DNA of 64,000 bases from Ulva prolifera (taxonomy: Eukaryota > Chlorophyta > Ulvophyceae > Ulvales > Ulvaceae), in contig CM041199.1 in the NCBI GenBank assembly GCA_023078555.1, positions 4,035,315 through 4,099,314 of the forward strand, read 5' to 3'. Each line of letters begins with the position of its first letter. Position 1 is the first letter of the stretch. The notes beneath the pieces are model-generated. The model was not told the origin of the DNA. It saw nothing but the letters and a program-made list of their open reading frames with translations, and did no database searches. Position numbers and translations under genes: made by a program. Positions 13,319 to 61,431 of the stretch are shown here, piece by piece.

Positions 13319-13666
13319 TGTCACAATGCATGAGCCTGCGGGCAGCAGTGTGGTGACAGGTGCCTCCATGCACGATCGATCCGCGGATCTAGTGCAGGGG
13401 TAAGCCGCCAGCCGGGATTGTCTCGATGTAGTGGGGGAAATCCCGCAAGGACCTCCCGCCGTAACCTTTAGTGCTCAGTGTGCATATATGGCTGTGCACA
13501 CTGTGATATGTAACCATTCTTATCACTGTTTCACGGTACTAGCTGTATCTGATCTCCCCCTCGCATTCCTCGGTTCTACCTCTGTGAGCAGCAGGTATGG
13601 AATGCTGGTTGCTTGACCTGACTTAAGACTGCGCGTCTGACCTGCAGATAGAGAGCATTTCTGACA
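13319..13666 (+). repeat. Family I copia LTR, 5' LTR of element A
   Basis: This 348-bp LTR begins TGTCACAATG and ends CTGACA. It is followed directly by a primer-binding site (TGGTATCGGTG) and a gag leader, so it is a 5' LTR. Eight further family I LTRs are present in the window. Family I ends are confirmed by solo copies with 5-bp target duplications. Confidence 0.9.
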
Positions 13667-16508: not shown

Positions 16509-16855
16509 TGTCACAATGCATGAGCCTGCGGGCAGCAGTGTGGTGACAGGTGCACCCATGCACGGACGATCCGCGGATCCAGTGCAGGGGTGAGCCGCCA
16601 GCCGAGATTGTCTCGATGTAGTGAGAGAGATCCCGCGAGGGTTTCTCGCCGTAACCTTGAGTGTTCAATGTGCATATAGGCATGTGCACACTGAGATCTG
16701 TAACCATTCTTATCACTGTTTCACGGTACTAGCTGTATCCTGATTCTTCCCCGCATTCCTCGGTTCTACCTCTGTGCGCAGCAGGTATGGAATGCTGGTT
16801 GCCTGACTTGACCTGAGACTGCGCGTCTGACCTGCAGATGAGTGACTTTCTGACA
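16509..16855 (+). repeat. Family I copia LTR, left arm of the inverted structure
   Basis: A 347-bp LTR in plus orientation. It is not the 3' LTR of element A: no polypurine tract precedes it (pol is cut mid-codon), and it is followed by its own primer-binding site and leader, as a 5' LTR would be. Confidence 0.88.
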
Positions 16856-18416: not shown

Positions 18417-18764
18417 TGGCAGAAAAGCTATCATACGTGCAGGGCGGACGCGCAGTCCTCGTTCAAGTCAGGTCAGGACAGCCAGCATCTCGTACCTGCT
18501 GCGCACAGAGGTAGAACCGAGAGATGCTGAAAGGAGAGTGCTAATACCGTGAAACAGTAAAGAGAATGGTTACAGATCTCAGTGTGCACATGCTTATATG
18601 CACACTGAACACACAAAGTTACGGCGGGAAACCCTCACGGGATCTCTCTCACTACATCGAGACAATCTCGGCTGGCGGCTTACCCCTGCACTGGATCCGC
18701 GGATCGTCCGTGCATGGGTGCACCTGTCACCACACTGCTGCCCGCAGGCTCATGCATTGTGACA
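18417..18764 (-). repeat. Family I copia LTR, right arm of the inverted structure
   Basis: A 348-bp minus-strand LTR: its end (TGGCA for TGTCA) is at 18417 and its start reads as GTGACA at 18764. It abuts family II pol sequence directly. The 5 bp next to it (CGCGC) do not match the 5 bp before 16509 (TTGTG), so the inverted structure is not one simple insertion with an intact target duplication. Confidence 0.88.
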
Positions 18765-21396
18765 CGCGCCCCCGTTGTCATATGTCGATGCAGTTGCTGC
18801 TCGCAAGCAGTACATGCAAGTGCACGGAGCTGCTGAGTATGATTTTGACGGGATGGCCATAGGCAAGAATCTTGTTGACCTGCATGATTCGGAGTACATC
18901 GACGATAGCCTGGCCGCAAAGTTTGAGCATGTAGTTCCGGAGCTGGGGGATGACCTCGGTTCAGGGGAGCTACAGCGGAAGACTAGACATACAACTCCAA
19001 AGGTAGTGGAGAACGTCCATGCGGTAGTGCGTAGTCAGGAGCTACGCCAAGGTGCTGCTGATTTGCACCTCCAGCCAGGTGAGAACATCGAGCGCGTCAA
19101 CAATCACTCCAACGTCGACCGCTTTCGGGAGCTTGAGCACTCCAACATCGACATGTCGCCATCGGCCGCACACAACAGCCAGAGGGCGAAGAGCTTCACA
19201 TCTCCGGGGAGATCTCTCGCCGGCGACTCTGGCAGAGTAGATGAGGTGAGTGTCCGCGACATGGAGATACAACATCAACCCAGCTCTGCCGCGGCGGGAT
19301 CAGCTGGCCCGCCGCGAGGGGCCATGGGAGATATTGGGGGACCCGTCCCCAGGGCTTCAGGCGAATGGGCTACGGCTCACAGCTTGGAGCATGGGATGGA
19401 CTACATGCGCGAGCATCTGGGTGGATTTATCTCCAGGGGAGAGGTAAGTCCGGCCCCAAACTCACTTGTCGCTGGGGAGTCTATGCAGACTGCTAAAGAA
19501 GTTAGGTTTGATTTGCATGACACTGCTGCTGATGCCCAAGGGCAGGAAGCGCAGTCGGCCCCAGTTAGACACAAATGGAACCCGCTTGTACGCAAGCGCT
19601 TGATTCCACATGCAGATGTTGCTGTCGTAGAAGCTAGTGTTGATATAGAGCATAGCACAGTGAGTGAGCAGACGGTAGCACCAAAGGTTGCCGACAGATC
19701 AGGCATGTTGGCTACGGCTGACAGTGCAGTGACTGGTGCAGAGGTGACCAAGCATGGGGAGCTTGATGGCGGTAAGTCAGCCCAGCGACGTTCATCCCGT
19801 CGGGTTGCAGCCATTAAGAAGAGGAAGCCTTTTGATCCTGATAGCCCGCCTTGGAAACAGGCCTTAGCTAGAGAAGATGCCGAGAAGTGGCATGGTGCTA
19901 TGAAGGAGGAGGTGACTTCGTTAAGCGAGCACGGAAGTTATGAGCTCGTTGAGCTGCCGGTAGGGGCCAAGGCCATTTCTGGTAAGTGGGTCTATAAGAT
20001 AAAGTGGGGACCCACAGGGGAGATCCAGCGTTACAAGGCGCGGTATGTAGCCAGGGGTTTTACCCAAGAAGAGGGAATTGATTTCTTTGAAACGTGGGCT
20101 CTAGTAGGGAGCTATGCTACTTTGCGTGCATTGATTTCGATCGATGCAGTAGAGGACTTAGAAATGAAGCATGTCGATATCCAGTGTGCCTTTCTGAATG
20201 GGGTAATGAATGAGACTGTCTACGTTGAACAGCCTCCTATCCTGAATGACGGTACAAATCGTGTGTGGAAATTGCTTAAGACTTTGTATGGGTTGAAGCA
20301 GGCTGCACGTGAATGGCACAAGGCCCTTGCACGTTTGCTAGGTGAAATGGGTTTTGTGTGATCACATTCAGACCCAACACTGTATGTTAGAATAACTGGT
20401 AGGTGTTTCATATTTCTGTGGGTCGATGATCTTTTTATCTTTGCACGGTCTATGGGCCTGAAGAAGTTGATCGATCAGATTCTCAAAGCATTTGAAGGTA
20501 GAGACCTTGGTGACTTGTCGTGGGCACTAGGTGCCTCAATCACCAGGGATAGGAAGCAGAAGATCATCTCTCTATCTCAGCAGCAGAAAGTAGTGAACCT
20601 GCTAGAGAAATTCAGCATGGTAGATTGCAGACCTAGTCCGACTCAGCTGGTGCCAAGGCAACAATTGAGGAGTGCTAAGGATCATCCCGAACTTGAGGCA
20701 GCAGACCAGGCTGAGCACGCTAGATTCATTAGTGTTGTAGGAGGCATCCAATATTTTGCTGTAGTTACGCGGCCTGATATTTCTTATGCCTGCAATGTTT
20801 TGGCCAAACATATGGGGTGTAGTTTAAAGGAGCATTGGCCAGCGGTGCAACATATACTGAGATACCTGCAGTCCACGAAGGAACTAGGTCTAGTGTTTGA
20901 GGGCTCATCAAAGAGCTGTTTGCTGAAAGGCTATTCGGATGCTGATTTCGCGAAGGACAAAGGCCTCAAAAGTGTGAGTGGCCTAGTCCTTAGGGTCTAT
21001 GGCAACACAGTATTTTGGAGGTCGAAGCGACAGCCTATCACTGCTGGTGATACAACTGAGGCTGAGCTGATCGCTATGCGTAGTGCAGCAAACGAGTTGA
21101 TGTGGGCTAAACAGTTGTTGTTAGACCTGCATCTTCGTCCAGAAAAACCTGTGCTTTGGGGAGACAATAAAAGTGCGAATATCCTAGCCAACAACCCAAT
21201 CTCTAGTGATAGGTCTAAACACATTCGAGTGCGGCACCTAAGGGTCCGTGAATTTGTTGAGGCAGACGAGATTCAAGTGCAATGGGTAGGGACCAAAGAC
21301 CAGCTTGCTGATGTCTTCACGAAGGTGTTACCAGGTCCTGCATTGAAGGATGTTCGGAAGAGACTTCATCTGATGCCAGTCCAGAGTAGTCTCTAG
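18765..21396 (+). pseudogene. Element B (family II) pol: linker, reverse transcriptase and RNase H, one stop
   Basis: A single frame runs from 18775 to 21396 apart from one TGA at 20359-20361. After a long linker (KSAQRRSSRR near residue 340) comes the copia reverse transcriptase: SGKWVYKIKW, RYKARYVARGF, HVDIQCAFLNG and YGLKQAAREWH. The active site FLWVDDLFIF lies just past the stop. RNase H follows, with DADFAKDKGLKSVSG, TEAELIAM, LWGDNKSANILA and a C-terminal DQLADVFTKVL. Gag, protease and integrase are missing on the left, where the inverted family I structure abuts. A sister of family I: compare element C, roughly two-thirds identical by eye over RNase H. Confidence 0.9.
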
Positions 21397-22650: not shown

Positions 22651-23002
22651 TGTCACAATGCATGAGCCTGCGGGCAGCAGCGTGGTGACAGGTGTACCCA
22701 TGCACGGACGATCCGCGGATCCAGTGCAGGGGTAAGCCGCCAACCGGGATTGTCTCTTGGGATGTAGTGAGGGAGATCCTGAGAGGGTCTCCCACCGTAA
22801 CCTTGAGTGTTCAGTGTGCATATAAGGATGTGCACACTGTGATCTGTAACCATTCTTATCACTGTTTCACGGTACTAGCTGTATCTGATCTCCCCCTCGC
22901 ATTCCTCGGTTCTACCTCTGTGCGCAGCAGGTATGGAATGCTGGTTGCCTGACCTGACTTAAGACTGCGCGTCTAACCTGCAGATAGAGAGCATTTCTGA
23001 CA
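22651..23002 (+). repeat. Family I copia LTR, 3' LTR of element C
   Basis: A 352-bp LTR from TGTCACAATG to TTTCTGACA, preceded by the polypurine tract at 22642-22650. It is almost identical by eye to the solo LTR at 52455-52806, including the unusual GGTGTACCC and TCTCTTGGGATG variants, so the two share a recent parent. Confidence 0.92.
22821..22849 (+). promoter_or_regulatory. LTR promoter and poly(A) signals (family I example)
   Basis: TATAAG at 22821 is followed 24 bp later by TGTAA at 22845, the typical green-algal poly(A) signal. The pair is kept in most family I LTRs here, for example near 52625 and 52651. This compact layout fits an LTR in which transcription starts and ends close together (a short R region). 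The roles are inferred from motif and position. Confidence 0.5.
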
Positions 23003-24841
23003 GCTGGGCGTCAAGGAAACGTTGTGCTTGATCCGGGTGCTGCTGAAGCAGACCGCACGTTCTCCGCGAGATTCTCGTGCGCTGCACAGCACGCGGCTAG
23101 GTCAGCGCGGGGCGCGACACAAGGGGCCAACGCATGCGGTAATCAGTAGCTACGGCGAGGCCGCGAGTTAACTGTGTAGCTACAAACGCTCAACAGCAGG
23201 TGGCTGGAGCTCGCTAGCACAAACGCTATGATAGAAACACGGAGCACAACTCAACGCGGCACGGAGCACATTTCGACGCGAGGCACAATGCAAGGTTAGT
23301 TTGTGCGTGTTGTGATGCAATTGTAGTATGACACCTTGATGCTCGTGTGCACAGGTGCCGATGTCAGGGTGCCACCGTGACGCTGCTATCACTGGTAATA
23401 GGGTTCAATGATGACCCCTATGCGATGACACCTAGATTACGGTGCGAGTGAGCGTGCGGGCACTGCAGTGCAATGTGGAAAGCACAATGATGCACAACAA
23501 GGGCCATAACAATCACAGATGTTCGCAGTGTTATTGTGGCGACGATTTGTGACAAATCGAGGCAGGTGAGGCTCACGGGGCTCGATGAGAGAGAACGTCA
23601 AGCGTCGCCCGAACCAGCCGTACACACTGCACTCTAGGAAATTAGGAACAGATTAACACGTAATGCAGCTGCTAAATCGAGAGATCTATGCAGCGCGTGC
23701 AGCGGTTTATAGCACGGTTCACAGCACGGCGATGCTAGCGGACGCGGGTGCGTGCAAAAGAGCAGCGAGTGTGCGGCTCGATCGACTCTCGCTCGCTACT
23801 CAGCAATGCATACCTGGAGGAGCAGCATCTGATTGTTGGAATGGTCTTGGCATGTCATATTTTTCTCTTGTAGCTCCACCAACCTGCTCAAAGACTGTTC
23901 AAATTTACAGAAGGAATCGACCTCCGGTCACACAAACAGCGATCGCATACGCACTTTCAAGTTCCAGCCACCAAAAAGCCGAGCTTCCTCAAGGATGAGA
24001 AGGCTTATGAGCACTGCAACTACACCAAGCAGTGCAGAGACAAGCGTGCATCAGAGCGGATGGCACGGCTGAGCGCACAGTCGCACATGCATGCATGTGC
24101 AGACGTATGCACGCAGCGTGAGTGCATTTGCGCGCAGCTGCGCTGGCTCGAGCAATGCTAGCACCGAGCATCGCTCATTGACATAGCTAGGCCACGACCG
24201 TACATGCTGGCATTCTGAGGTATTCTTTGATATACTTTCGGCTGGCTCAAGTTTGCAAGGCACTAGCCTGAGATACATACACATGTATCCACAATTGGTG
24301 CATGCATATCTGGAATATGTGTGCTCTGGAGCAGACAGATTTGGCCATTACAACATGACGCTTCTAGTCGCGCTTGCATTGGAACAGTTTCCTCAAGGGA
24401 GCGTTTCTAGCGGCGTTGAAGGTGACATGTGATTGCATGTGTGAGCGATGTCAACGCCCGATGCCATTGGGGAGGGGTTTGTGTAGGTGTGGATGCATTG
24501 GTGCACCAATGGTTGGGCCACGACGCACCGGTCTCTGGCGTGCGGATGCGCGGTGGTGCAAGACCGGGCATCTTGGGCGATACGTCCGCCTCTGACGACG
24601 GTGGGTGTCCTCCAACCGAAATGTGGCTGTATGTGTGTGGAGAAGTCTTTGCACGTGTCCTGCCGTCTGATATATGTCGCACAGGGCCGGGCGCGGTTAT
24701 CACGGGCGGCGATGGCGGAGCCACGCCACGATTCGGCCCCGTGCGACCCCTTGCCCATGTACCCACGGCCTTGTACAGACCTTGTCACACGGCAATACAC
24801 GGCCAACCGTCTGACTTGTTGTGCAGGGGCGCCCAACACAC
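23003..24841. other. Region between element C and a truncated family II LTR, no firm gene
   Basis: No recognisable domain. A short protein-like stretch occurs on the plus strand at about 23965-24080 (reading KKPSFLKDEKAYEHCNYTK), but no complete frame or splice context supports it. GC-rich short frames on both strands at 24370-24930 overlap each other and look like chance. Confidence 0.4.
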
Positions 24842-26238: not shown

Positions 26239-26289
26239 AAGTCAGCCCCACAGCATCTCCCAAAGACATATGGGACGTGATGAAGAAGC

Positions 26290-26634
26290 TGTTACAAACG
26301 CTATCCTATGCAGGTCAGACGCGCAGTCCTTATGCAGGTCAAGTCAGGTAGCCAGCATTTCCATACCTTCTGCGCACAGAGGTAGAACCGAGGAGATGCT
26401 AGGAGGAGATGCTAATACCGTGAAACATTATGAAGAATGGTTACAATTCTTAGTGTGCACAGTCACATATGCACACTGCATAGTCAAGATTACGGCGGGA
26501 GACCCTCGCAGGATCTCCCTCGCTACGCCGAGACAATCCCGCTGGCGGCTTACCCCTGCACTGGATCCGCAGATCGTTCGTGCATGGATGCACATGTCAC
26601 CACATTGCTGCCCGCAGGCTCATGCATTGTGACA
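26290..26634 (-). repeat. Family I solo LTR inserted in element D gag (target duplication GAAGC/GAAGT)
   Basis: A 345-bp minus-strand LTR flanked by GAAGC (26285-26289) and GAAGT (26635-26639), a 5-bp duplication with one mutation. Gag continues on both sides (DVMKK, then FSGVNSARK). The LTR carries more differences from the other family I copies than most, so it is one of the older ones. Confidence 0.88.

Positions 26635-34538: not shown

Positions 34539-34572
<34 letters not shown>
34539..34572 (+). repeat. G34 homopolymer tract
   Basis: Thirty-four consecutive G residues lie 16 bp before the (TG)n array. Such a run can form G-quadruplex structures, and its exact length is prone to assembly error. 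Confidence 0.95.
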
Positions 34573-34574
<2 letters not shown>

Positions 34575-34587
34575 AAACGGCCCTGTG

Positions 34588-34963
<376 letters not shown>

Positions 34964-44769: not shown

Positions 44770-47087
44770 TAGCATTTTTGGCGCGGCTGCGTGCGTGTTG
44801 AGCGTGCGGCGGCCTGACGCCAGCGCGTGACAGGGTACTCGTGGATGGAGTCCTGCAGTGCGGCGCTAGTTGGCTGTGTCGCGTGAGTTGCTAGACGTTG
44901 AGCTCCTGTGTGCCCTGTGCGTGCTTAGAGTGCTACAGTGTGATTCCAGCATGTTCAAGGTATTAGTGGTTTTGCTGGCTGCTGCAGTCAATTGCTCCTC
45001 GCTGGCGCGTTGCTTGCATGGAGGGGTGTATGGGACGGCTGGGGGGGCTTGCTGGGAGTTGGGAGTGGAAGTGTGTAGTTGTGATCTGTTGTGTGTGATT
45101 GAATAACGATGCTGCTCGTGGGATGGGGATGATACGGTGTGCATGATTTGGCTCCTACCACAGCTATAGAGTACTATACGGTCTTGTGGTACAAGGAGAA
45201 AGCAAGCAAGGCGGGTAGCACCGCGTGCAACAACTAGCAGCCACCCGCGAGGAACAAGCCAAAAAGTAATTTAGGTTTCCAGGCACCACATGGCCAGCTG
45301 CATTGCGCTCAACCCCGAACGCCCCACCCACAGAACTTGGCAGTTTGATGTGGGTACCCGGAGCATGCAGACACGAACACACCGGGTTAGCCCACTCACC
45401 CGGGGCATGTCCTAAGCTCAAGTCAATCTTGTGGTGAGCAGGTGCAACAGTACGTGGGAAGTGATGCTCAATCGCACCAGATAGCAGCTTCATCATACCA
45501 TCTCTGAGCATGGCTACACTGTCAAATTGTCTCCCAGCCTGGTAGACAAACAACTCGAAAGAGAAACGTGAGCTGCAGAAGAGTCAACGGGAGCGAGAAA
45601 CGAAATGTGCACTGCTCGTGACCGCGAATGTAAACCAGTCCAGAGCGCCGCGAGGTGTTGGGTCACCCAATTTGCATCCCGACAATGGACTTCAACCCAC
45701 TGACGCGCATTGCAGTCATCTCCCTTCATGTCTGCATGCCGCTGCGGCCTGACGTCGTCATCGCTGCGAGCGATTGTTTGAGGCTGAGCCTCTCTCCGAG
45801 TCATGGCCGCATGCTCGTGGACCTACCCCATGCGGACAACATACCGGAGGTAGAGGCGATGATAGCCGCTGCGATTCTGCTGACCCACATGTCCGCGATG
45901 GCGGACCTCACGATCACGAACACGTCGACAGTGTCCACGACGCTTTGTGCCCGGGGACCAACATCCGCCGCATCAAGGACCACACCGCTTCTACAGGCAG
46001 ACGAGTACCGACATGCGATTATGGCGTCCGACCACGGCAGCGCGCTCTCTCAGGAGCATCCTCTTGGCCATGTGGACAACACTGTGGAACCTCCGGAGGT
46101 GCCGAATGATTGATCCCTGTAGCCACAAGCTGCCGTGCGAGGTGTTAGGGTTCGGTGGGGTTATGTACAGTACAACGCACCATTGGATGTCTTGCTTGCT
46201 TGTGTTGTACTCAACATGTTGCATCGGCATTCGGAGCAGCGGACCTCGAAGGAGTGGGAGCTGTGCTGGGGATGTTTGTGTCGTGTGCTCAATCCAACTA
46301 TGTATTGCGGACTTTGTAACGTGTCTGTGGGATCGCGAGTGGCAGAAGGCCATGCATCGCAACACACAACACCAGACGTGTATATGTGAATGGCAATGGA
46401 GCTTTTGGTGGCTCTGACATGTGCATTGCGCCAAATGGCGTCATTCAATCAAAAACCTTTGCTTTCTCAAAACTCAATCAAAACTCTTTGTTTACATGCC
46501 CATGACGCAATGGCTTTTGCTGACACTACAAAACGTTTGCATGCGTCAAGTACACCATGCACCAATGAGCCCGATATATGGATGCCGTTGGGCGAGATGC
46601 ACGTGAAAGGACCACACGATGGGTGCACTGCAGAATTTTCAAAGATCACTAACCTTGATCGTATGACGGAGGGGGGGGGGGGGGGGGGTTGTTTGTAGGG
46701 GTGATGACTGTTATTATGCTTTTGCACCTTCGTGGTTTCTCAGCGCAGGTTCTTCTTGACACATGCCCATGCGGACGACACTTGTGATATCGGGAGTGTA
46801 TTGAGCGTCTGTACATTGAAACATACATTCGTAAATAGATTGTTGAGTCTTCCAAATCATCGGAAACTTCCGGCTGCATATTCCAGAGCTTGCCGCAACT
46901 ATTGTGACAGATCAATGCGTGTAGGAAGGACATATCTTGCTGCAGCTCCAGAATACCATGGTACTGTATCTATTGGCATCGAACCCCTAACCCCCTAACC
47001 AGCCAAAACACGTGGTTGCTGAGGGGGTATGTTTTGAATATGACTGCACTCATTGCTGTGGTGGGTCTGGTGCACCCCTCCCCCCCC
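44770..47087. other. Region between the SRA-like gene and the JmjC-like array, no firm gene
   Basis: Open frames at 45164-45553 (-, 129 codons), 45655-46113 (+, 152 codons) and 45991-46434 (-) overlap on opposite strands, and none shows a recognisable domain. A run of 18 G residues is at 46671-46688. The word TACAAGGAGAAAGCAAGCAA near 45190 resembles TACAAGGACAAAGCAAGCAA at about 34965 just after the (TG)n array, so a dispersed repeat may be present. Confidence 0.4.
46671..46688 (+). repeat. G18 homopolymer tract
   Basis: Eighteen consecutive G residues (preceded by GGA). Together with G34 and G24 it is one of three long G runs on the same strand within 12 kb. Confidence 0.95.
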
Positions 47088-50028
47088 CTCAAGGTTTGGG
47101 TTGTTGTGCCACCGGAGTGGCTACAACACGCTAGCAAGCTGTGGAATGTGATGGAAGTTAAAAGTGTCCACAAAATGCAGACACAAGTTGACGCTTTTGT
47201 TACCAAGGCATATGTTGGGAGGCTGTGGTGTTTTGCCAGCGACCGGGGGATGTCGTGGTCATTCCTGCCGGTTTTGTCCACGCGGTCCACACGTGCTACG
47301 ACTAGGGAGTCATGGACCAGTGGTGTGCGTTGGGGGGGCCAGCTATGGTTTCTGGAGAACCACAGAGACCTTCAAGCCGTGTTTGTGCTTGGTGAAAACC
47401 GACAATGCAAGATCGGCTAAGGAAAGACACATGCCACCTATATTACCCCCGCCTGTTGGCACCATTGTATAGGCTATGGAAGGGGGGGAGCAAAGTCGCT
47501 GCACCTGTAACCACCTACAAGTACCTAAAGACAGTCTGCTCAGTATGAACGGTAGGAATGCCGAGTCAAAGGGGGGTAGAATAAATAAAAGGGGGGATGT
47601 GCGAACTGCAGAGCGAAGCGTGATAGGATGAAGAAAGAACGGGCTACTCGTACACGTAGGATGTTCGTGGAGATCGTCAAGGTTTGGGTTGTTGTGCCAC
47701 CGGAGTGGCTACAACACGCTAGCAAGCTGTGGAATGTGATGGAAGTTGAAAGTGTCCACAAAATGCAAACACAAGTTGACGCTTTTGTTACCAAGGCATA
47801 CGCTGGGAGGCTGTGGTGCTTTGCCTGCGACCGGGGAATGTCGTGGTCATTCCTGCCGGTTTTGTCCACGCGGTCCACACGTGCTACGACTAGGGAGTCA
47901 TGGACCAGTGGTGTGCGTTGGGGGGGCCAGCTATGGTTTCTGGAGAACCACAGAGACCTTCAAGCCGTGTTTGTGCTTGGTGAAAAACCGACAATGCAAG
48001 ATCGGCTAAGGAAAGACACATGCCACCTATATTACCCCCGCCTGTTGGCACCATTGTATAGGCTATGGAAGGGGGGGAGCAAAGTCGCTGCACCTGTAAC
48101 CACCTACAAGTACCTAAAGACAGTCTGCTCAGTATGAACGGTAGGAATGCCGAGTCAAAGGGGGGTAGAATAAATAAAAGGGGGGATGTGCGAACTGCAG
48201 AGCGAAGCGTGATAGGATGAAGAAAGAACGGGCTACTCGTACACGTAGGATGTTCGTGGAGATCGTCAAGGTTTGGGTTGTTGTGCCACCGGAGTGGCTA
48301 CAACACGCTAGCAAGCTGTGGAATGTGATGGAAGTTAAAAGTGTCCACAAAATGCAGACACAAGTTGACGCTTTTGTTACCAAGGCATATGTTGGGAGGC
48401 TGTGGTGTTTTGCCAGCGACCGGGGGATGTCGTGGTCATTCCTGCCGGTTTTGTCCACGCGGTCCACACGTGCTACGACTAGGGCGTCATGGACCAGTGG
48501 TGTGCGTTGGGGGGGCCAGCTATGGTTTCTGGAGAACCACAGAGACCTTCAAGCCGTGTTTGTGCTTGGTGAAAACCGACAATGCAAGATCGGCTAAGGA
48601 AAGACACATGCCACCTATATTACCCCCGCCTGTTGGCACCATTGTATAGGCTATGGAAGGGGGGGAGCAAAGTCGCTGCACCTGTAACCACCTACAAGTA
48701 CCTAAAGACAGTCTGCTCAGTATGAACGGTAGGAATGCCGAGTCAAAGGGGGGTAGAATAAATAAAAGGGGGGATGTGCGAACTGCAGAGCGAAGCGTGA
48801 TAGGATGAAGAAAGAACGGGCTACTCGTACACGTAGGATGTTCGTGGAGATCGTCAAGGTTTGGGTTGTTGTGCCACCGGAGTGGCTACAACACGCTAGC
48901 AAGCTGTGGAATGTGATGGAAGTTAAAAGTGTCCACAAAATGCAGACACAAGTTGACGCTTTTGTTACCAAGGCATATGTTGGGAGGCTGTGGTGTTTTG
49001 CCAGCGACCGGGGAATGTCGTGGTCATTCCTGTCGGTTTTGTCCACGCGGTTCACACGTGCTACGACTAGGGAGTCATGGACCAGTGGTGTGCGTTGGGG
49101 GGGCCAGCTATGGTTTCTGGAGAACCACAGAGACCTTCCAGCCGTGTTTGTGCTTGGTGAAAAACCGACAATGCAAGATCGGCTAAGGAAAGACACATGC
49201 CACCTATATTACCCCCGCCTGTTGGCACCATTGTATAGGCTATGGAAGGGGGGGAGCAAAGTCGCTGCACCTGTAACCACCTACAAGTACCTAAAGACAG
49301 TCTGCTCAGTATGAACGGTAGGAATGCCGAGTCAAAGGGGGGTAGAATAAATAAAAGGGGGGATGTGCGATCTGCAGAGCGAAGTGATAGGATGAAGAAA
49401 GAACGGGCTACTCGTACACGTAGGATGTTCGTGGAGATCCTCAAGGTTTGGGTTGTTGTGCCACCTGAGTGGCTACAACACGCTAGCAAGCTGTGGAATG
49501 TGATGGAAGTTGAAAGTGTCCACAAAATGCAAACACAAGTTGACGCTTTTGTTACCAAGGCATACGCTGGGAGGCTGTGGTGCTTTGCCTGCGACCGGGG
49601 AATGTCGTGGTCATTCCTGCCGGTTTTGTCCACGCGGTCCACACGTGCTACGACTAGGGAGTCATGGACCAGTGGTGTGCGTTGGGGGGGCCAGCTATGG
49701 TTTCTGGAGAACCACAGAGACCTTCAAGCCGCGTTTGTCCTTGGTGAAAAACCGACAATGCAAGATCGGCTAAGGAAAGACACATGCCACCTATATTACC
49801 CCCGCCTGTTGGCACCATTGTATAGGCTATGGAAGGGGGGGAGCAAAGTCGCTGCACCTGTAACCACCTACAAGTACCTAAAGACAGTCTGCTCAGTATG
49901 AACGGTAGGAATGCCGAGTCAAAGGGGGGTAGAATAAATAAAAGGGGGGATGTGCGAACTGCAGAGCGAAGCGTGATAGGATGAAGAAAGAACGGGCTAC
50001 TCGTACACGTAGGATGTTCGTGGAGATC
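47088..50028 (+). repeat. Tandem array, five head-to-tail copies of a 588-bp unit
   Basis: Unit starts, taken at GGTTTGGGTTGTTGTGCC, are 47093, 47681, 48270, 48858 and 49445, so periods are 588, 589, 588 and 587. The array spans 2941 bp, five whole units. Copies differ at few sites and fall into two types: units 1, 3 and 4 share one set of variants (AAGTTAAAAGTG, GTGTTTTGCCAGCG), and units 2 and 5 share another (AAGTTGAAAGTG, GTGCTTTGCCTGCG). A one-base A-run difference (GAAAACC or GAAAAACC) decides whether the longest frame is 126-134 or 169 codons. Each unit carries the JmjC-like sequence described separately. High identity means recent amplification or ongoing homogenisation. Confidence 0.95.
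47093..49720 (+). pseudogene. JmjC/cupin-like coding sequence repeated in each array unit
   Basis: In one frame each unit reads VWVVVPPEWLQHASKLWNVM, like the JmjC strand KxWxVVPPE. About 150 bp further, in the next frame, it reads QRPGDVVVIPAGFVHAVHT, like the late JmjC/cupin block (QxPGDxVxxPxGxxHxVxN) that supplies the distal iron-binding His. The frame offset is the same in all five copies, so the ancestral unit already had a frameshift or an unseen intron. The first iron-site part (HxD/E) is missing. The unit may therefore come from one or two exons of a JmjC-domain gene, amplified as a satellite. In units with five A residues the first frame stays open for 169 codons but does not contain the second block. 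Confidence 0.5.
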
Positions 50029-50827
50029 AGGCTACTGAAGGGGTTGGTTGTATGAAGATCCGGTCAATTTTTCGGCCGGTGGTGTAGGCCCGCGGTCACA
50101 CAAACTTGTACCAAACTTGTTCACAACTAGCCCGGACATTTAGCGGGGCATATAGTTGGGTATTGTTTTATGGCAGTCATCACAGTGTCGATAGGATTGT
50201 GTTGGTATGATATTTTTATGTTCAGTGCGCGTTGCCAACAATACTATTCTCTTTTGTAGCGAAACATATTTTACGGCATACCTTTCACTGTACTCCATAA
50301 TTTACTATGGACTATGTTGCCGGCGCACATTTTTCACGACAGGTACACACATGCGTGTGCTTGTATAGACCCGGCATGTAAAGTGCATGTTTGTGGTTTT
50401 CGTTGACACTCTTGGAGTTCCTCGTTTGTGTGGCTTAGGCATATATATCAATGGGCATAACATTGCCCATTCTCCATTGCAAAGTGGTGATGGTCACCAC
50501 ATACAGACTCTTACTGGCAAAACGCATGCTTACCACGATTGGCACGATATCACGTCTAAACAATTAATGTAGTGCAAGAACGGCATTCCTTGCAACATGT
50601 GTTGGAGGTTAAATCATATAGTGTTGCATTTTGCCATGCACACATCCCTGATTAACACCCAAAGTAGACTGTGTGTTACACTGCCAATATGTTGTGATCT
50701 CATTAACGCCGATTCACACCAATTAAATTATAAAAATTGGCTTTGCTCTGAGAGGTTCATGCTAGATTGACTATTCAATCAATTCTTGCAAGTGCTTTTT
50801 GGTGCAATCTGCTGATGTAATGTAACA
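50029..50827. other. AT-rich spacer between the array and the pogo-like element
   Basis: Lower GC than most of the window. Only short open frames (the longest 61 codons at 50387-50572) with no recognisable content. The array ends abruptly at 50028 within AGATC. Confidence 0.5.
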
Positions 50828-52454
50828 TACCGTATCACCGCTAATTATTGAGACCACGTGTAAAATTTTCGGTGGTCCGAAACTAGCCCCGCTAATTCGA
50901 GGCAGCTGGTCCAAAAACTTCAAAACGTACGCACACGCCGGTCCAATCCTTTTGCGGACTGCGCTTTGGGCGATTAGATGAAGCGGCGCAAATCAAATTG
51001 CGCGCATCTCGTTTAGCTACAGCCTTTCTCGCCAGAGCCCCACGATGTTGCCTTCGGATTGCAAGCCCCTTCCCCGGGCACGCGCAGGCACATACAAACA
51101 TGCAATCAATATCATTAAGTATGCTCAGAGTAATCTCAAAATGAGCACCGCTAGTAGAAGAGCGACAAAAGCAGTGCCTGTCGTGCGGAACGCCGGCCTT
51201 GCATCGGCAAATACCGACGAGGCTGTTGCGATCGATCAGCCACTTCGAAAGGTCGTGTCTGTACTATTAATCGTTGAAGACAACAAGACGGACGGAATCG
51301 AAAAGGTCTCGCTCTTCCTGATGCTCCTCGATACGGAGAAGCTGAAGCAGCCGAAGAAGTACGTGAAGCTAACGAGAGAGGAGAAACAGATGACAATCAA
51401 TCTAGCGGACGCGATAGGAGACAGAGAATCGGTGAACAAGAAGGTCGAGTTTATCAAGAGCATACATCCCAGGTTTTGCAATGTCAGCAAGCAGTCGCTG
51501 CATCGTTACCGAGAAGAGCTTGCTGATAGTACAAAGCATACGAAGCCGCCAGCGAAGCCTATAGGACGGCCTAAAGTTGTCAGTGATGAATTTTGCGCTG
51601 GAATTGGAGTGGAGGTGTGTCGCAATCGGCGTGATCGTTGTCAACTGCGTCGTTGACGTTGTTGCATCGCCGAAATCTGCAGTCACGTCGACGCCATATG
51701 CTATCACCAGCTAGCGATCATTTGATATTGTATTAATGAAACAGTGTCTCGGCTTTGCAGCTAGCACTCTCTCGCTGCAGCCCGATGTGAATCTCTGCAA
51801 TGACAACGGTACTGTGTAGGTGAATAAAATGCTGGACAAGAACATCCCAATTGCCGCTGCCCAGGTGGCAATCATTGCTGAGCATTACCTCGTTGAGGTT
51901 GGTGTTGGAGAGCTTCTTGAAGATAATGGTGGTGTATTCAAGGCTGGCAGCACATGGTGCTCAGAGTTGCTGCATGAATTGGGGTTTACTCGCAGAAAGT
52001 GCACCACACAAGCATCAAAGCTGCCAAAAGATTGGGAGAAGAAGGGAGAACGTTTGACAATGCAGGCATGTTCTCGTTCTCAGCTCGACCGATAAATGCT
52101 TGCTTCGTCAAATGACAGTGCTAGGTTTTCCCCTCATGTTCATTAACAAACATTCCAACACAGATCGGGTGCAGGTTGCCTTCGTTGTTGATGTCCATCA
52201 GATTCCACCCGAGCTGGTCGTGAACTCCGATCAGGCAGCAGTTTGTTTTGTAAACGCTCTAGTATACCAATGGGCTGTCAAAGGCAGCAGGATGTATCGG
52301 TCACTGGTTTTGCTAACAAGCGCTAGATTACTGACAATCTAGCAACGACCGCATCAGGTGACAGTCTGGGACTACAGGTGTGAATGATGAACATCTCATG
52401 TGTGCAGTGAGTGAGTTGTGTGTGTTTGAGTTTTGTCACTTCGGAAGCATACCA

Positions 52455-52806
52455 CTGTCACAATGCATGAGCCTGCGGGCAGCAGCGTGGTGACAGGTGT
52501 ACCCATGCACGGACGATCCGCGGATCCAGTGTAGGGGTAAGCCGCCAACCGGGATTGTCTCTTGGGATGTAGTGAGGGAGATCCTGAGAGGGTCTCCCAC
52601 CGTAACCTTGAGTGTTCAGTGTGCATATAAGGATGTGCACACTGTGATCTGTAACCATTCTTATCACTGTTTCACGGTACTAGCTGTATCTGATCTCCCC
52701 CTCGCATTCCTCGGTTCTACCTCTGTGCGCAGCAGGTATGGAATGCTGGTTGCCTGACCTGACTTAAGACTGCGCGTCTGACCTGCAGATGAGTGACTTT
52801 CTGACA
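52455..52806 (+). repeat. Family I solo LTR in the pogo-like element, target duplication ACCAC
   Basis: A 352-bp LTR TGTCACAATG...TTTCTGACA flanked by perfect ACCAC repeats (52450-52454 and 52807-52811). It defines both LTR ends and the 5-bp duplication of family I. It is nearly identical to the 3' LTR of element C (22651-23002). Confidence 0.96.
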
Positions 52807-53171
52807 ACCACCTGTGAGTAAGAACATGTGCAATGACATGCAGGTGATTTTCAGTGGGAAGACTACTGCCTCTGCCTGCAGCCATCAGACGATCAAGCAA
52901 AAAATTCAGTGATTGGCAGTGGACAGCTACAGCGAACCATTGGTCAAACTTGCTGGAGCAGAAGAACTATGTGCGGTTGATTCTCGTGCCATATTTTAGG
53001 GCCAAGATTGATGGGTTGCAGCTGAGCGATTCTCAGAAAGCACTCTACATCATTGACTGCTGGCCCGTGCACATCAACGCAGATTTTCGGCACTGGATGA
53101 AGACTGAATATCCCTTGATCCTCGTGTTGTATGTGCCAACAAGCTGCACCGGAAAGCTTCAGCCTCAAGAC

Positions 53172-53517
53172 TATCACAATGCATGAGCCTGCGGGCAGTA
53201 GTGTGGTGACAGGTGCACCCATGCACGGACGATCCGCGGATCCAGTGCAGGGGTAAGCCGCCAGCCGGGATTGTCTCGATGTAGTGAGGGAGATTCTGCG
53301 AGGGTTCCCGCCGTAACCTTGAGTGTTCAGTGTGCATATAAGGATGTGCACACTATGATCTGTAACCATTCTCCTTATTGTCTCACGGTATTAGCATCTT
53401 CCCATCAGTGTTTCCTTGGTTGTACCTCTGTGCGCAGAAGGTATGGAACACTGGCCTCCCGACCTGACCTGACGTAAGACTGCTCGTCTGACCTGAGCGA
53501 ACGAAGCATTTCTGACA
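53172..53517 (+). repeat. Second family I solo LTR in the pogo-like element, eroded target site
   Basis: A 346-bp LTR whose first bases are mutated (TATCAC for TGTCAC). The left flank is AAGAC. The right flank has only C before AAGTTCTACC, consistent with loss of four bases of the duplication. Removing the LTR joins LQPQD to KFYQKPFKH in the transposase frame, as in pogo-family proteins. Confidence 0.88.
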
Positions 53518-54554
53518 CAAGTTCTACCAGAAGCCATTCAAGCATGCTGTGATGGCGTCATTTTGTGAGTGGCAGATGGGCCGCTATCGAATGGCACAAC
53601 AAACAGGTATGCTCAGCTGCACCTAGCTGTCGTGTGTCAGTATGTGTGTTTGTGTGTCTGACTATGTGTCTGTGTATCTGTATCCGTGCGCGTATAATTG
53701 TCATGTGGGCGCTGATGTGCTTCAGATTTGCAGGTGACTTTGACATCCTGAAAGATTTCAAGGTGTCCACACTGAAGCCCTTGATGCCGAGCTTTCTGTA
53801 CGCGGGCTGGAGCCGGATCAAGCGAGATCCGGACATGGTGATCAAAGGCTGGGATGCATGCGGACTGCGCTGCATGTTTGACCACAGGCGGGCTGATGTG
53901 GTGAGCAGAGCTAGACTTGCTCAGTATGATGAGACGAATGAGTACTACCCCCTGTTCCCGGAATCCAAGATCAGCGCACCGCCTCTGGATGCTGAGGATG
54001 ATGCAGTCAAGGAGTCTATGATGGAGCTGGACAGTGTGCAGCCCGTAGATCAGACGATTGAGGAGCTACAGCAACACTTGATGCAAGAGGACCCCAGTGC
54101 TTTGCAACATGTGCAGACACTGCAGACAGAATCTGAGGCAAGCCCGGCTCCAACAGCTGCACCTGCCGTTGTGGGCGGGCGCAGGTTGTGCCCTCTATTC
54201 GAGGCACCACAACGTGATCGCAAGCGGGCACGGGCGAGTGGGACAATTGCGGGTGCCGCAGCAAATAACAGCAGTGGCAAAACTGACTGAGTGTTCCTTA
54301 TGCAATTGGCTGCAAGCGGGGGACCTCGGGCGGTCCAACCGTGTGCTATCAACAATTACATATTTTTTTAGCTCTGTTGCCCTGTTTAATATTGGTAATA
54401 TATTTGACCAGATTGGACCGGTCCAATATTTACCGTGCTCGCAGACCTGTGGTCCAACATTTAGCGGTGACTGGTGGCAGTGGTCCAATTTCTTAGCGGT
54501 GTGTGGCAAAGTGGTCCAATAAATTAGGGGTCTCAATAATTAGCGGTGATACGG

Positions 54555-54984
54555 TATCCAACGGATAGAGGCGGGTGTGGCAATTCCTGCTAAGGTGCCG
54601 ATTGGAATCTAGTACTATGCACTGCATATGATGGCGTGCCATCATACCACATAGTCCATATGCAATAGGGATGTACTTGCGCTTTGTTGTGAAAGTGCCT
54701 CGTAGCGCACAAGGCAGGTGCAAATGCGAAAGCACGCACGGGGTGACACGTGGCAGTCACCAGCCCGCGAATGCGAAGACGCATTCCAGCTCTCTGTATA
54801 GGTCGAACAAGGTCATGGCTCAAGTATCTGACTCAGATACTGACCATGCAGGTGTGATCCCAGATCTCAGGCGTCATGTGTTGAATACTCCGCACACATA
54901 CTTAACATTTCGCCCAACTAAACTTACGGTATGACGCTTCCACTCGCGCTTGCATCCGAACATTGCTTTGCATGTGGCAACATG
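54555..54984. other. Spacer between the pogo-like element and a solo LTR
   Basis: Begins with the TA target duplication of the pogo-like element. No gene seen; open frames are under 90 codons. Confidence 0.5.
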
Positions 54985-55338
54985 TGTCACAATGCATGAG
55001 CCTGCGGGCAGCAGTGTGGTGACAGGTGCACCCATGCACGGACGATCCGCGGATCCAGTGCAGGGGTAAGCCGCCAGCCGAGATTGTCTCGATGTAGTGA
55101 GAGAGATCGTGCGAGGGTTTCCCGCCGTAACCTTGAGTGTTGAGTGTTCAGTGTGCATATAAGCATGTGCACACTGGGATCTGTAACCATTCTCTTTACT
55201 GTTTCCCGGTACTAGCACTTCCCTTCAGCATCTCTCGGTTCTACCTCTGTGCGCAGCAGGTATGAGATGCTGGCTGTCCTGACCTGACCTGCATGAGGAC
55301 TGCGCGTCCGCCCTGCACAAGGATTAGCATTTCTGACA
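54985..55338 (+). repeat. Family I solo LTR, target duplication ACATG
   Basis: A 354-bp LTR from TGTCACAATG to TTTCTGACA, flanked by perfect ACATG repeats (54980-54984 and 55339-55343). A solo LTR left by recombination between the two LTRs of a full element. Confidence 0.96.
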
Positions 55339-55937: not shown

Positions 55938-56288
55938 ATACACAATGCATGCGCCTGCGGGCAGCAGTGTGGTGACAGGTGCACCCATGCACGATCGATC
56001 TGCGGATCCAGTGCAGGGGTAAGCCGCCAGCGGGATTGTCCCGGTGTTGCAAGGGACATCCTGCGAGGGTCTCCCGCCGTAACCTTGAGTGTTCAGTGTG
56101 CATATAAGGATGTGCACACTACGATCTGTAACCATTCTTCTTACTGTTTTACGGTACTAGCATTATCTATCATTCCTTAGCATTCCTTGGTTCTACCTCT
56201 GTGCGCAGCAGGTATGGAATGATGGCTGCTTGACTTGACATGTGCATGACTGCGCGTCTGACCTGCACGAAGGGTAACATTTTTGACA
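55938..56288 (+). repeat. Family I copia LTR, 5' LTR of element E
   Basis: A 351-bp LTR with a mutated start (ATACACAATG for TGTCACAATG), ending TTTTTGACA and followed by the primer-binding site TGGTATCGGTGAA and the leader. The many differences from other copies suit an older insertion. Confidence 0.88.
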
Positions 56289-59200
56289 TGGTATCGGTGA
56301 ATGTTAGCGTTATGTCTGTTCTGGTCTTGTTCAGGGCCAAAGTCTGAGTGCAGACACGGCGGGCATTCCACTGTTCTGCCGGCGCTCAGACCGCGGTCAT
56401 AAGCGCATGCATCATTAAGCAGTCTCGTAGCATATTGTTGTTAGATACAATTCGAGACGCTTGTTTTTAATGATCAGCGCTGAGAAAAGCGAATGCGTTT
56501 GCTTATTTTCTCAACGTGTAGGCTTACGAGCCATCAATCGGTCACTTGCTGCACGCAACAAAGAATCGTCGGTCCTACTGCAGGATGTCCAATCTCGATC
56601 GTTTTCATGCCAACTCTCCTCGCGAGGAAAGGCAAGACGAGGCTGATCAGCAGCCACTAGCCGACAGGGACGCTGACCAGCAGCTCCCTGGCGAAGAGCA
56701 GTCCGTGGGCATGTTACTTCGCGGCGGAATCTCATCCGACCATGTCCCTCTTCCCAAAGTGGGCAGAGCAGTCATCAGGTGCCCTTTTCCTCTCATGTAG
56801 TGAACAATGTTGTTCATGCTGAGTCTCTCATCACACTCGAAACGTTGACCGAAGCGGTGCGAGCATCTCGGGGACGTAGCGAACCTGATCTGACTAATGG
56901 AAAACTGCTCTGAGTGGAATGATAAGACCAAAAGCTTCGTTGCATACGAGCAGAAAGTCTTCTTGTGGTTAGGCCAGTTCGAACAGGATCAAGTGTTGCA
57001 GCACGCACCGTCTGCGGACGAACATCGTGTCCATGCTAGGGCAAGGACACAGGTCCTTATGTCTTTGCCAGACGCGGGTAGGACTACTATCTATCGCATG
57101 TCACACCTGTGTGAAGCATGGGCCTATTTAACTGCCAAGTATAGGCCTAGCACCGAAGCCGATGTTCACAGACTGTGGAGTCGGTTTAATTCTTTATCGC
57201 TGAACAATAGACGTCTCGTCTTACTGTGGTGATGTGATGAGTGTTTACACTCAACTGGAGGCACTAAGTGCCGTTGTGAGCCAGCGATGGCTTCGTTTGA
57301 AAATGTTAGAAGTGTGGGAGGAGTTCAACGCTGTGCGCGGCGAAGTTCTCCATTCTTCCCCACACGTAATCATATCACGTTTGACCGAGCATGCTGATTT
57401 GCTTAAGCAACAACGGCTGCATGCTAGATCTGGGGCACCCGCGGGCAAACCAGGCCATGGCTAGCACAAGCAGCCCCGTGCTGATGGTCCTGTGGTCGCC
57501 GCTCTCGCGGCAGGCCAGGCTCCTCGCGAGGAGACCAGGACTTGCTCCTTCTGCAAGAAGAAGGGACATTTGCGTGCGAACTGCCCCCAGCGCAAACAGG
57601 CTGCGGCCAAGGATGTTTGTGCCGTAGAAATGCCTGAAAATTATCCAACACCTGACGCGTCTCTGCCTTGAATGTAATCATTGATAGTGGTTCGAACGTT
57701 CATATCGTAGGTAATCGTGAGATGTTTACTGAGTACGGTCCTTGTCAGAGGACTGCCAATCCCGCGGGACCAGGCCAGCTCCCTATCATGGGTAGGGGTA
57801 CCAGGTGAACCTGGGTACTTATGTTGATAAGCATGGAAACAAGCATCCTTTGTATGTGGAAATTCCTGGTGTTTACTATGCCCCAAAATGTCCGTACAAC
57901 CTGCTTAGTACAATGGATCTGAGGCATGAGCAGATGTTCTTGGATACGCGTAGGAGTGTGTTGTATGTCCCTGGTCTTGGTGACATGGCTATTGGTATTG
58001 TCGATGATATTAAATACCAGGAGCTTGACTGAGACAAGATGGTCACCCTGTATTTGCGTTCAAAATGAGTGTTGAAACCTGTTCTTATTGGTCGACCTGT
58101 CAATAGGGGGGTGGTCTTGTCTAACCAGAGCAGTTCGACCTCTGTGATAGAGGACCAGAAGCAGTGGCATCACGTGGCAGCTGCGGCTATAGACCGGAAG
58201 CGACCCAATGCAGGGGGAATTGAAATCCCACATGATGCATACTTGCTGGAACCTGATATTCTAGCGCATTTGTCCTTTCACCAGTCCACGTGGGAACTGA
58301 AGCGTATGCAAGCCAACGCTGATTTTTATGGTGATTTACGTCTAAAGGTTGATTCCGAGCCAATGGGGAATCGTTGTCATGGTTGCAGAATTGGCAAAGT
58401 GCCTGCGGGCAACTTCTCTGCCAATGATCGTGAGCTCATAGGCCAGGCCAAGTATCCTGGCGAGCAACTGCACGCCGATTTAGCTGATCCTGTCACTCTA
58501 GCAGGGATTGGTGGTGTGAAATATGTTTGGTTTGTGATGTGTGCCTTTACCCGATATCCTTTTGTGGTCTGCGCAAAAAGAATGAGGCTGCGGCCATGAT
58601 CTCTTATATCATTGAGCGCATTTGGGTGAATGTGGTGAAGCCACGTGAACCGGGTGTGCGCATCCTACACACCGGCAAAGGGGGAGAGTACATGGTCGAG
58701 GCCTTGTTGCTCTACCTCCGGCGTCGTGGCATCACTCACCGCACAACCCCCACAGCTGATCATCGCTGCAATGGCATGATCGAGCGGAGGATCGGAATCG
58801 CCTTTGAGGCACTTCGTGCTGTACTGCTTGCGAGCGGCCTGCCTCTATTCCTGTGGATTGAATACCTTGTAAGTGTTATCCATGGTCACAACCTCACGCC
58901 GTGCTCGGCGTTGTACCATGACAAACTGGCACGAATTCTCAAGTCCCAGAATGCTCAGCATGCTGTCAACGCATCCGCGGATGTTGAGCAAGCTGAGAGG
59001 GGGACCAAGCGCATGAAAAATGCCGAGCGCGATAAGTTGAGGGATGAGGAAAAACGCAAGTATCAGCTGCTTGCGACGACAGAGGTTGACGAGTTTTTGT
59101 TGAGGTCTTGTGACAGGGATATCATTCCCTATATGTCTTTTTTCAGAGACACCTCCGTTGAGGTGTTCCAAGATCTGCTGCGGCAGCAGCGTCCGTGGGG

Positions 59201-61431
59201 GGTTGAAGTGTATGCGAATCCTAGGGATGACAAGCTGCGGAAGCTGTCCCAAAGGAGTATTCTTGCATACTGGGCCGGGGTTGGGCTGGGCCCCTGCATG
59301 CAGCGTGTGTACGCCCAGAATGTCCCTGGGGGTTTTTGCAGTGCGCCAGGTCATGTGCACTGCGGATCAAATGATCCGCCACGTACGCAAGTACGATGCA
59401 TCCGCTGTTGTGGACAAGAGGGAGCCTGAGGAGTTTGCGAACTCCTACACGGTTGTCTTCGAGGGGGATAAAGACGGTGAACGTGTGACTGATAGTGATG
59501 TGCCTCCTTTCATGGCTGATCACACGTATGACGGGGGAGTGTTGCGCCGTCTGCGTGACCAGCTTCACACCCCCCCCGGTCATGGTATGTTGAGACCTAT
59601 TGGTCTGGTCTTAGGTAACAGACCTCGATGGCAGTAAGAAGAAGCAGTGATGGGTCAAGATTGCCGCAGCACGAGGGCTGTATAGGCACAAACAGAGCAG
59701 GGGTACACTCACACGCAGGGATGCGACGTGCCAGTGCAGAAATGGATGGCGCCCCAACCAGACTACTGTAAAGCGTGTCTGGTCCCAGCAAGCGCTCGGT
59801 ATAAATACCGGGGTGTGTGCGCCCAGGTCAATCCCCCTGTCAAAGCTGGCCTCGCCGAATCGTGCCGCATAACTGCCACACTGATCCCAGATCCCGCATA
59901 AGCGCGGGAGATCTTAAATTGTGGCTCACAGAGCCTGAGATGAGTGTAAGCAAGGCTGCGCACGTAATTCGTGGCCAGCTCTGGGTGGTTGTACAGATAT
60001 TATCGTGCATGCCAACCCTGGAGCCCGCCGGGCGGACCCTGTGTAACGGCGGTAATGCACACAGTAAGACGTAATATGTGCAATAACGATTCGGCTAGCC
60101 GCATAAAGCCATAATAAGCCTATGACGGGACACAGTGTGCCGGGAGAAGGCTGTACACAGTGCTGATGCCATGTGCACGTAAGGCTGGTGGACGCGTGCA
60201 GTCACACGTGGCGAGTGCAGGCACGTAAGCCCACTGAGCGTACGTGTGATCACACTGTGTACAACTCGATCGGTAATTCAAAAGCTATGCGTGTGCGACC
60301 GTCCACATGGCTGGACACGTCGCTACGCATATAAGAAAAGGTGTTAATTGTGCCAGCATGCGCTAGTGTGAGAGATATCTCACAACATGGTAGGGTTCCC
60401 GTCATGGATATGACCTTCCGGCAGGACGACCCCCTGCCAAGTCCTGACGTGTACTCTCCACGATTTGGAGCTGGCTCCTCTGCGGAGGTAATCCGGCGTG
60501 ACCCTGCTCGGGCCACACCGGAGGTAGCCAGAGTAGCTTTGCATCGCACGTGTGCGACTTCCAGAGCTGCGGCTCACCCTAATGTCCCTGTTCCCCCTCG
60601 TGTGCGCAGCCAAGTGCATCACTCTGAGGCTGTGCCCTCACGCATTGTCGATTATGTTGTCACTCGACACGCTGTTTTGCACAACCCTGGTGTAGAAGCT
60701 GCCTTCCCCGTTCAGCTGTCGGCCGGCTCATCCGAATCCGGCATGGATGAGGATGACGCCGACGGTCCCAGCATCTATGATGATGACGATGAACAGAGGA
60801 TGGACTACACCATGACAGAGGAGGCTGCGACCCATCAAAATCTGGAGGCTCAGCGGGTCCGTTCCGGGAGTAATTCGGCCGCGGCCTCAGCGTCTACCGC
60901 GGGAGTAGTTGCTCAGCCCCTGCGAGGAGCTGAGGCGCCGAGGCCTTTCTGGGAGGATGAGCCTGATGAGGTGGAGACCGGGTCCGAATTAGGGGGAGAG
61001 GCCCCGGACCCCTCAGCCGTTGTCGGGGTTGATTTGCTTGACGAGGTGAGGGCCATTCCAACTGCCTTGCCTCGTATCAAAATCAATCCTCTTGTACGCA
61101 GACGCCTTGTTCCATTGGCTGCGGATGTAGCAGCCGTACATATGCATGAGCTTGCGGGCTCTGACATTGCTAGTAGTGAAACAGATGTAGCTGCTATCGA
61201 AGCTCCGGGCTGCAATGAGGACACATCAGCCACGGCTGACTGTGGAGTGTAATGTGCAGGCCTGGAGCATCAGCATGTGGAGTCTGGCGAGCAGCAGAGT
61301 GCTCAGCGTCGTGGGTCGCGCAGAGCAGCTGCCGCTAGGAGGCAGAAGCCTTGTGACCCTGATCTGCCTTCTTGTGGTGAAACCAGGAGTTTTCAGGAGA
61401 ATCATAAGCATGGCTCAATAGGAGACTGCTG
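56289..61431 (+). pseudogene. Element E (family I) gag-pol, decayed and cut by a family IV element
   Basis: The leader hairpin (56481-56513) precedes gag near 56585. Gag blocks (FLWLGQFEQDQVLQHAPSAD, then the CCHC CSFCKKKGHLRANC at about 57543) are split by frameshifts near 56800-56910 and 57225. Protease (VIDSGSNVHIVG, Asn for the usual Asp) is near 57678. The integrase core runs 58069-59000 with HADLADP, HTGKGGEY (catalytic Asp changed to Gly) and MIERR (Glu kept). A further pol stretch ends near 59637. 59638-60340 has no recognisable coding and may be another insertion. 60341-61252 is the acidic linker (MDEDDADGPSIYDDDDEQRM), then INPLVRRRLVP and QSAQRRGSRR, as in element B. The start of reverse transcriptase is cut at 61431 by an LTR. 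Confidence 0.85.
59638..60340. other. Non-coding insertion-like block inside element E
   Basis: This 700-bp block lies between the two halves of the element E pol linker and has no counterpart recognisable in elements A or B. It holds TATAAATA (59801) and TGTAA (60041), which could be LTR-type signals, but I found no matching ends or target duplication. Confidence 0.35.

Follow-up and report, generated by a model that had tools for sequence, protein, structure and literature searches.

Tandemly duplicated pseudogene fragments are known as a general kind, and the metal-binding site of JmjC proteins is marked by the triad motif HxD/E ... H. Both bear on a tandem array lying on contig C4 of Ulva prolifera, in a stretch of 64,000 nucleotides (the whole of the DNA analysed, hereafter the window). 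This array very probably arose by the local and recent tandem duplication of a decayed JmjC-like pseudogene fragment. No such array is mentioned in the titles and abstract beginnings of the literature searched. An earlier note, made from the letters of the window, had described it as a satellite of five exact units built from a JmjC-like gene fragment.

Results

Five units of two types

The array occupies window positions 47089-50028 (Table 1), and its successive units start 588, 589, 588 and 587 bp apart. The head-to-tail array of five ~588-bp units described in the earlier note is real, but its units are not exact, any two of them differing at 1 to 18 of 589 alignment columns. Across all five, 21 of the 589 columns vary, comprising 15 substitutions, two internal indels (one base at column 305, and a two-base deletion at columns 529-530 in unit 4) and three edge columns. 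With all columns counted, the two A-type units (1 and 3) are separated by 1 difference and the two B-type units (2 and 5) by 6; between the types, 8 to 15 columns differ. Unit 4 follows A as far as column 148 and B from column 159 onwards, the order along the array thus being A, B, A, A/B, B. Seven of the A/B substitutions cluster in columns 70-159; equally tight clustering was seen in 11 of 200000 random placements. Our preference is to regard them as an older A/B difference, the surroundings of which would have been evened out by exchange. Conversion from the relatives on contigs C5 or C1 (see below) was rejected as their origin, since, by eye, neither A nor B fits these relatives throughout. 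With respect to the two motif blocks assigned to each unit, VWVVVPPEW is present in frame 0 of all five, but the second, QRPGDVVVIPAGFVHAVHT in frame 2, occurs as an exact string in two (units 1 and 3), its counterpart being LRPGNVVVIPAGFVHAVHT in units 2 and 5 and QRPGNVVVIPVGFVHAVHT in unit 4. The array is absent from the output of Tandem Repeats Finder, in which the longest period given is 500.

Table 1. Features of the array and its left surroundings (window coordinates)
Feature	Position	Strand	Basis
Left flank, with homology to sequence lying directly upstream of JmjC-like pieces on C6 and C1	46487..46793	+	DNA similarity
Interposed sequence separating unit 1 from the gene-like left flank	46794..47088	.	
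Unit 1, A type, 588 bp	47091..47678	+	
Unit 2, B type, 589 bp	47679..48267	+	
Unit 3, A type, 588 bp	48268..48855	+	
Unit 4, A/B recombinant, 587 bp	48856..49442	+	
Unit 5, B type, ~587 bp, right edge of the array	49443..50028	+	

Relationship to JmjC-like genes

When unit frames were compared with the Pfam JmjC family (PF02373; curated cut-off 24 bits), the frame-2 fragment of unit 1, which corresponds to the second block, gave a match just below the cut-off (E 8.4e-5, 23.4 bits), while the frame-0 ORFs tested, those of unit 2 (169 aa) and unit 5 (219 aa), matched nothing in Pfam at E up to 1. A search of the genome (88.9 Mb, 44 contigs) with PF02373 returned 10 matches, and the array was not among them. 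Relatives of the array were found on C5 (72% over 287 bp), C1 (79% over 150 bp) and C3 (a stop-to-stop open frame of 386 codons), with weaker ones on C9 and C6; the search for a parent and for other arrays proposed in the earlier note produced a family, but no close intact parent and, among the matches listed, no second array. The C5 ORF scored 23.8 bits against JmjC and the C3 open frame 20 bits; for the 199-aa ORF of the C1 relative and the 135-aa ORF on C9 there was no JmjC match at E up to 0.1. Comparison of the C3 open frame with solved structures rendered three weak, unrelated matches (best E 0.36).

The whole unit aligns to residues 199-383 of the C3 open frame (199 to 386 in the case of unit 4). 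For unit 1 the score against the C3 protein was 291, the maximum in 60 first-order Markov shuffles being 54; its last 149 bases, taken alone, gave a weaker match, with 5 of 200 shuffles as good. The C3 relative bears HVD at residues 179-181 and PHAAH at 253. The units, which start at residue 199, begin past the HxD motif and hold only the last His of the metal site, such that they fall short of PF02373 membership both in score and in the HxD/E ... H triad. A JmjC-like source is borne out by the HMM match of unit 1 and the alignment to the C3 frame, albeit with scores slightly below the Pfam cut-off and an array that the PF02373 genome search missed. The family is thus JmjC-like and lies just under the curated line, and the array is filed here as derived from a JmjC-like gene and not as a member of PF02373. 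As the HxD portion of the metal site is missing from each of them, the units are unlikely to yield a functional enzyme.

A founder that was already broken

The units were aligned to the C3 frame with frame breaks permitted. In each, between four and six frame breaks were seen, along with one stop at unit position 213; the break at 127, that stop and the breaks at 243-258, 313-314 and 438-439 were present in all five. In the aligned part of the relatives, C5 has one stop, C1 two breaks and one stop, and C3 is open throughout; most of these relatives are thus themselves damaged. With the stop and frame breaks common to all five units, and an open relative with which to compare them, the founder must already have been a pseudogene; of the two possibilities given in the earlier note, a broken founding unit is the one supported. 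The other, that an intron caused the frame offset, is not supported, since C5, C1 and C3 are uninterrupted at the place of break 127 (in C1, a stop precedes that point by some 12 codons). The offset would instead be explained by breaks within a stretch that the relatives read through.

Surroundings of the array

The left flank is 79% identical to its C6 counterpart, and positions 46493-46791 are 70% identical to C1 at 9.96 Mb. It holds the peptide THAHADD, which aligns with the HxD region of the C3 open frame, and it matches C3 residues 150-191, adjoining residue 199 where the unit begins. This peptide match is modest, 3 of 60 shuffles being as good when the whole flank and frame were used, and 3 of 300 with a narrower query picked after the first test; for the counterparts on C6 and C1, 1 and 42 of 300 shuffles, respectively, were as good. 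The DNA similarity between the left flank and C6 ends at 46793, but C6 and C1 remain alike past the corresponding point. In the interposed sequence, 46867-46981 resembles two places on C5 (~71%). Neither 46811-47090 (150 of 300 shuffles as good) nor the right flank at 50030-50372 (168 of 300) gives a match to the C3 protein. The locus is thus made up of C6-like sequence on the left, ~295 bp of a different sequence, and, on the right, C5-like sequence in five repeats. The resemblance of the left flank to the sequence upstream of another JmjC-like piece (that on C6) suggests that the array grew in or beside a patchwork locus of this family, its flank being C6-like and its unit C5-like.

Other repeats in the window and at the relatives' loci

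Elsewhere in the window, 34539-34962 holds a run of 34 G and, 11 bases further along, ~189 copies of TG. A ~350-bp repeat, possibly a solo LTR, occupies nine places in both orientations (13319-13666, 16508-16855, 18417-18771, 22651-23006, 26287-26634, 52455-52817, 53171-53521, 54984-55338 and 55941-56288). A dispersed repeat starts at 50828-51000, with at least six further places at 97-98% on other contigs and more at 77-91%. At 58069-59429 two ORFs resemble, by eye, a copia-type integrase; Pfam rve was matched by the second only (E 0.098), the first having no match. At the relatives' loci L018 and L019, C5 and C1 have pieces in common (4.1 and 0.75 kb at 92.8%, and 0.17 kb at 94.7%) which contain the JmjC-like gene and an adjoining second JmjC-like piece; in L018 one copy of the ~350-bp repeat sits within sequence that runs unbroken in L019, and a 5-bp overlap there resembles a target-site duplication.

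Codon positions and the open frame 0

The earlier note had offered selection or youth as reasons for the conserved stretches. By frame-0 codon position, the 15 substitution columns fall 3 at first, 5 at second and 7 at third positions (5 third expected, p = 0.20). At sites fixed in C3, C5 and C1, changes on the unit branch numbered 8, 7 and 8 over the three positions, versus 8, 10 and 21 on the C3 branch, a contrast that speaks for decay of the units but is not significant (Fisher p = 0.19). Per available site, third-position change was commoner on the unit branch (8/29 versus 15/109, p = 0.09), a value compatible with constraint before decay. These counts are small and show no significant departure that would indicate constraint in any frame. 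Selection is therefore given no clear sign by the codon positions, and youth, together with exchange between units, suffices for the absence of decay.

The same data bear on whether the units might be a new gene, two opposite frame breaks having reopened frame 0, with an ATG in the preceding unit's tail and a repeated protein of ~169 aa being kept. ORFs of 169, 169 and 219 aa do run through units 2, 4 and 5, that of unit 2 (47628-48137) beginning in the unit 1 tail; it is in the abandoned frame that the stop at position 213 falls, and the 7 third-position columns are a small excess. However, in units 1 and 3 the frame ends after 109 codons, a base being missing at column 305, the two ORFs compared with Pfam matched nothing, and the other 8 of the 15 variable columns are at first or second positions. 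A gene of this kind is therefore considered highly improbable. A shade less probable still is that a JmjC-like exon was converted by compensating breaks into a novel repeated frame, expressed as a family of small proteins.

Distribution in the genome

The tandem order and the exchange between units could also be those of a nascent satellite, or of a unit spread by a mobile element. Nevertheless, one array was found in the 88.9 Mb, counts being lower bounds, and no inverted repeats of at least 25 bp (seed 12) were detected in 46300-50900; such an origin deserves even less credence than an expressed small-protein family. The genome DNA search gave at least seven matches, namely the five units at one place and single relatives on C5 and C1, which supports duplication in situ. 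The satellite of the earlier note is thus not upheld: long or multiple arrays would mark a satellite, and here there are five copies at one place, with no second array among the matches listed. The genome also gave 38 matches to the chlorophyll a/b-binding family; for one of these, the best chain among solved structures was a protein of the Euglena gracilis photosystem I, followed by many chloroplast chlorophyll a-b binding proteins of the green lineage, so that the DNA probably comes from a phototroph with a green-lineage plastid. A search with PF02972, directed at cryptophytes, had no match, and neither had its controls.

Discussion

The least credible reading, a multi-domain JmjC gene that has introns and still works, and of which the repeats would be exons or domains, has in its favour a pyrimidine-rich stretch followed by AAG before unit 1 (by eye, a candidate splice acceptor), but the common breaks and stop lie inside the conserved core, the relatives are continuous at the first break and the HxD motif is absent from the units.

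Tandem duplication of a pseudogene fragment, the origin we favour, would have proceeded as follows. A JmjC-like gene copy on C4 decayed, as is shown by the frame breaks and stop within the stretch that is continuous in relatives. A segment that starts midway through the JmjC-like domain and stops some three codons short of the open frame's end would then have been linked tail to head through an error of repair or replication that needed little homology or none; by eye, the unit 4/5 junction, which has an ancestral look, shows no more than one base of homology. Unequal exchange may have raised the copies to five and mixed the variants; the recombinant unit 4 and the order of types are themselves seen in the sequence. 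Several observations count against this origin: in units 2, 4 and 5, frame 0 has no stop over the first 152 codons, a length not certain for neutral sequence; there are the third-position excess of frame 0 and the third-position rate on the unit branch; and the locus is a patchwork for which no close intact parent was found, its left flank having a modest protein match.

The array offers a clean and young illustration of a piece of a decayed gene becoming a tandem repeat, with exchange mixing variants among few units. Only if its units turn out to be expressed would it have a bearing on chromatin control.

Compared with known systems, the array resembles satellite DNA in its tandem order and near-identical units, but differs from it in having five copies at one place, other arrays not having been found (counts being lower bounds). 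It resembles Pfam JmjC (PF02373) in that the C-terminal metal-binding strand matches, but the scores obtained, 20 to 23.8 bits, stay below the cut-off of 24, and the units are without the HxD part. With tandemly duplicated pseudogene fragments it shares local head-to-tail copies of a decayed gene piece and exchange between the copies; what sets it apart is that the source is a JmjC-like gene and that the unit retains nearly the whole 3′ half of the open frame.
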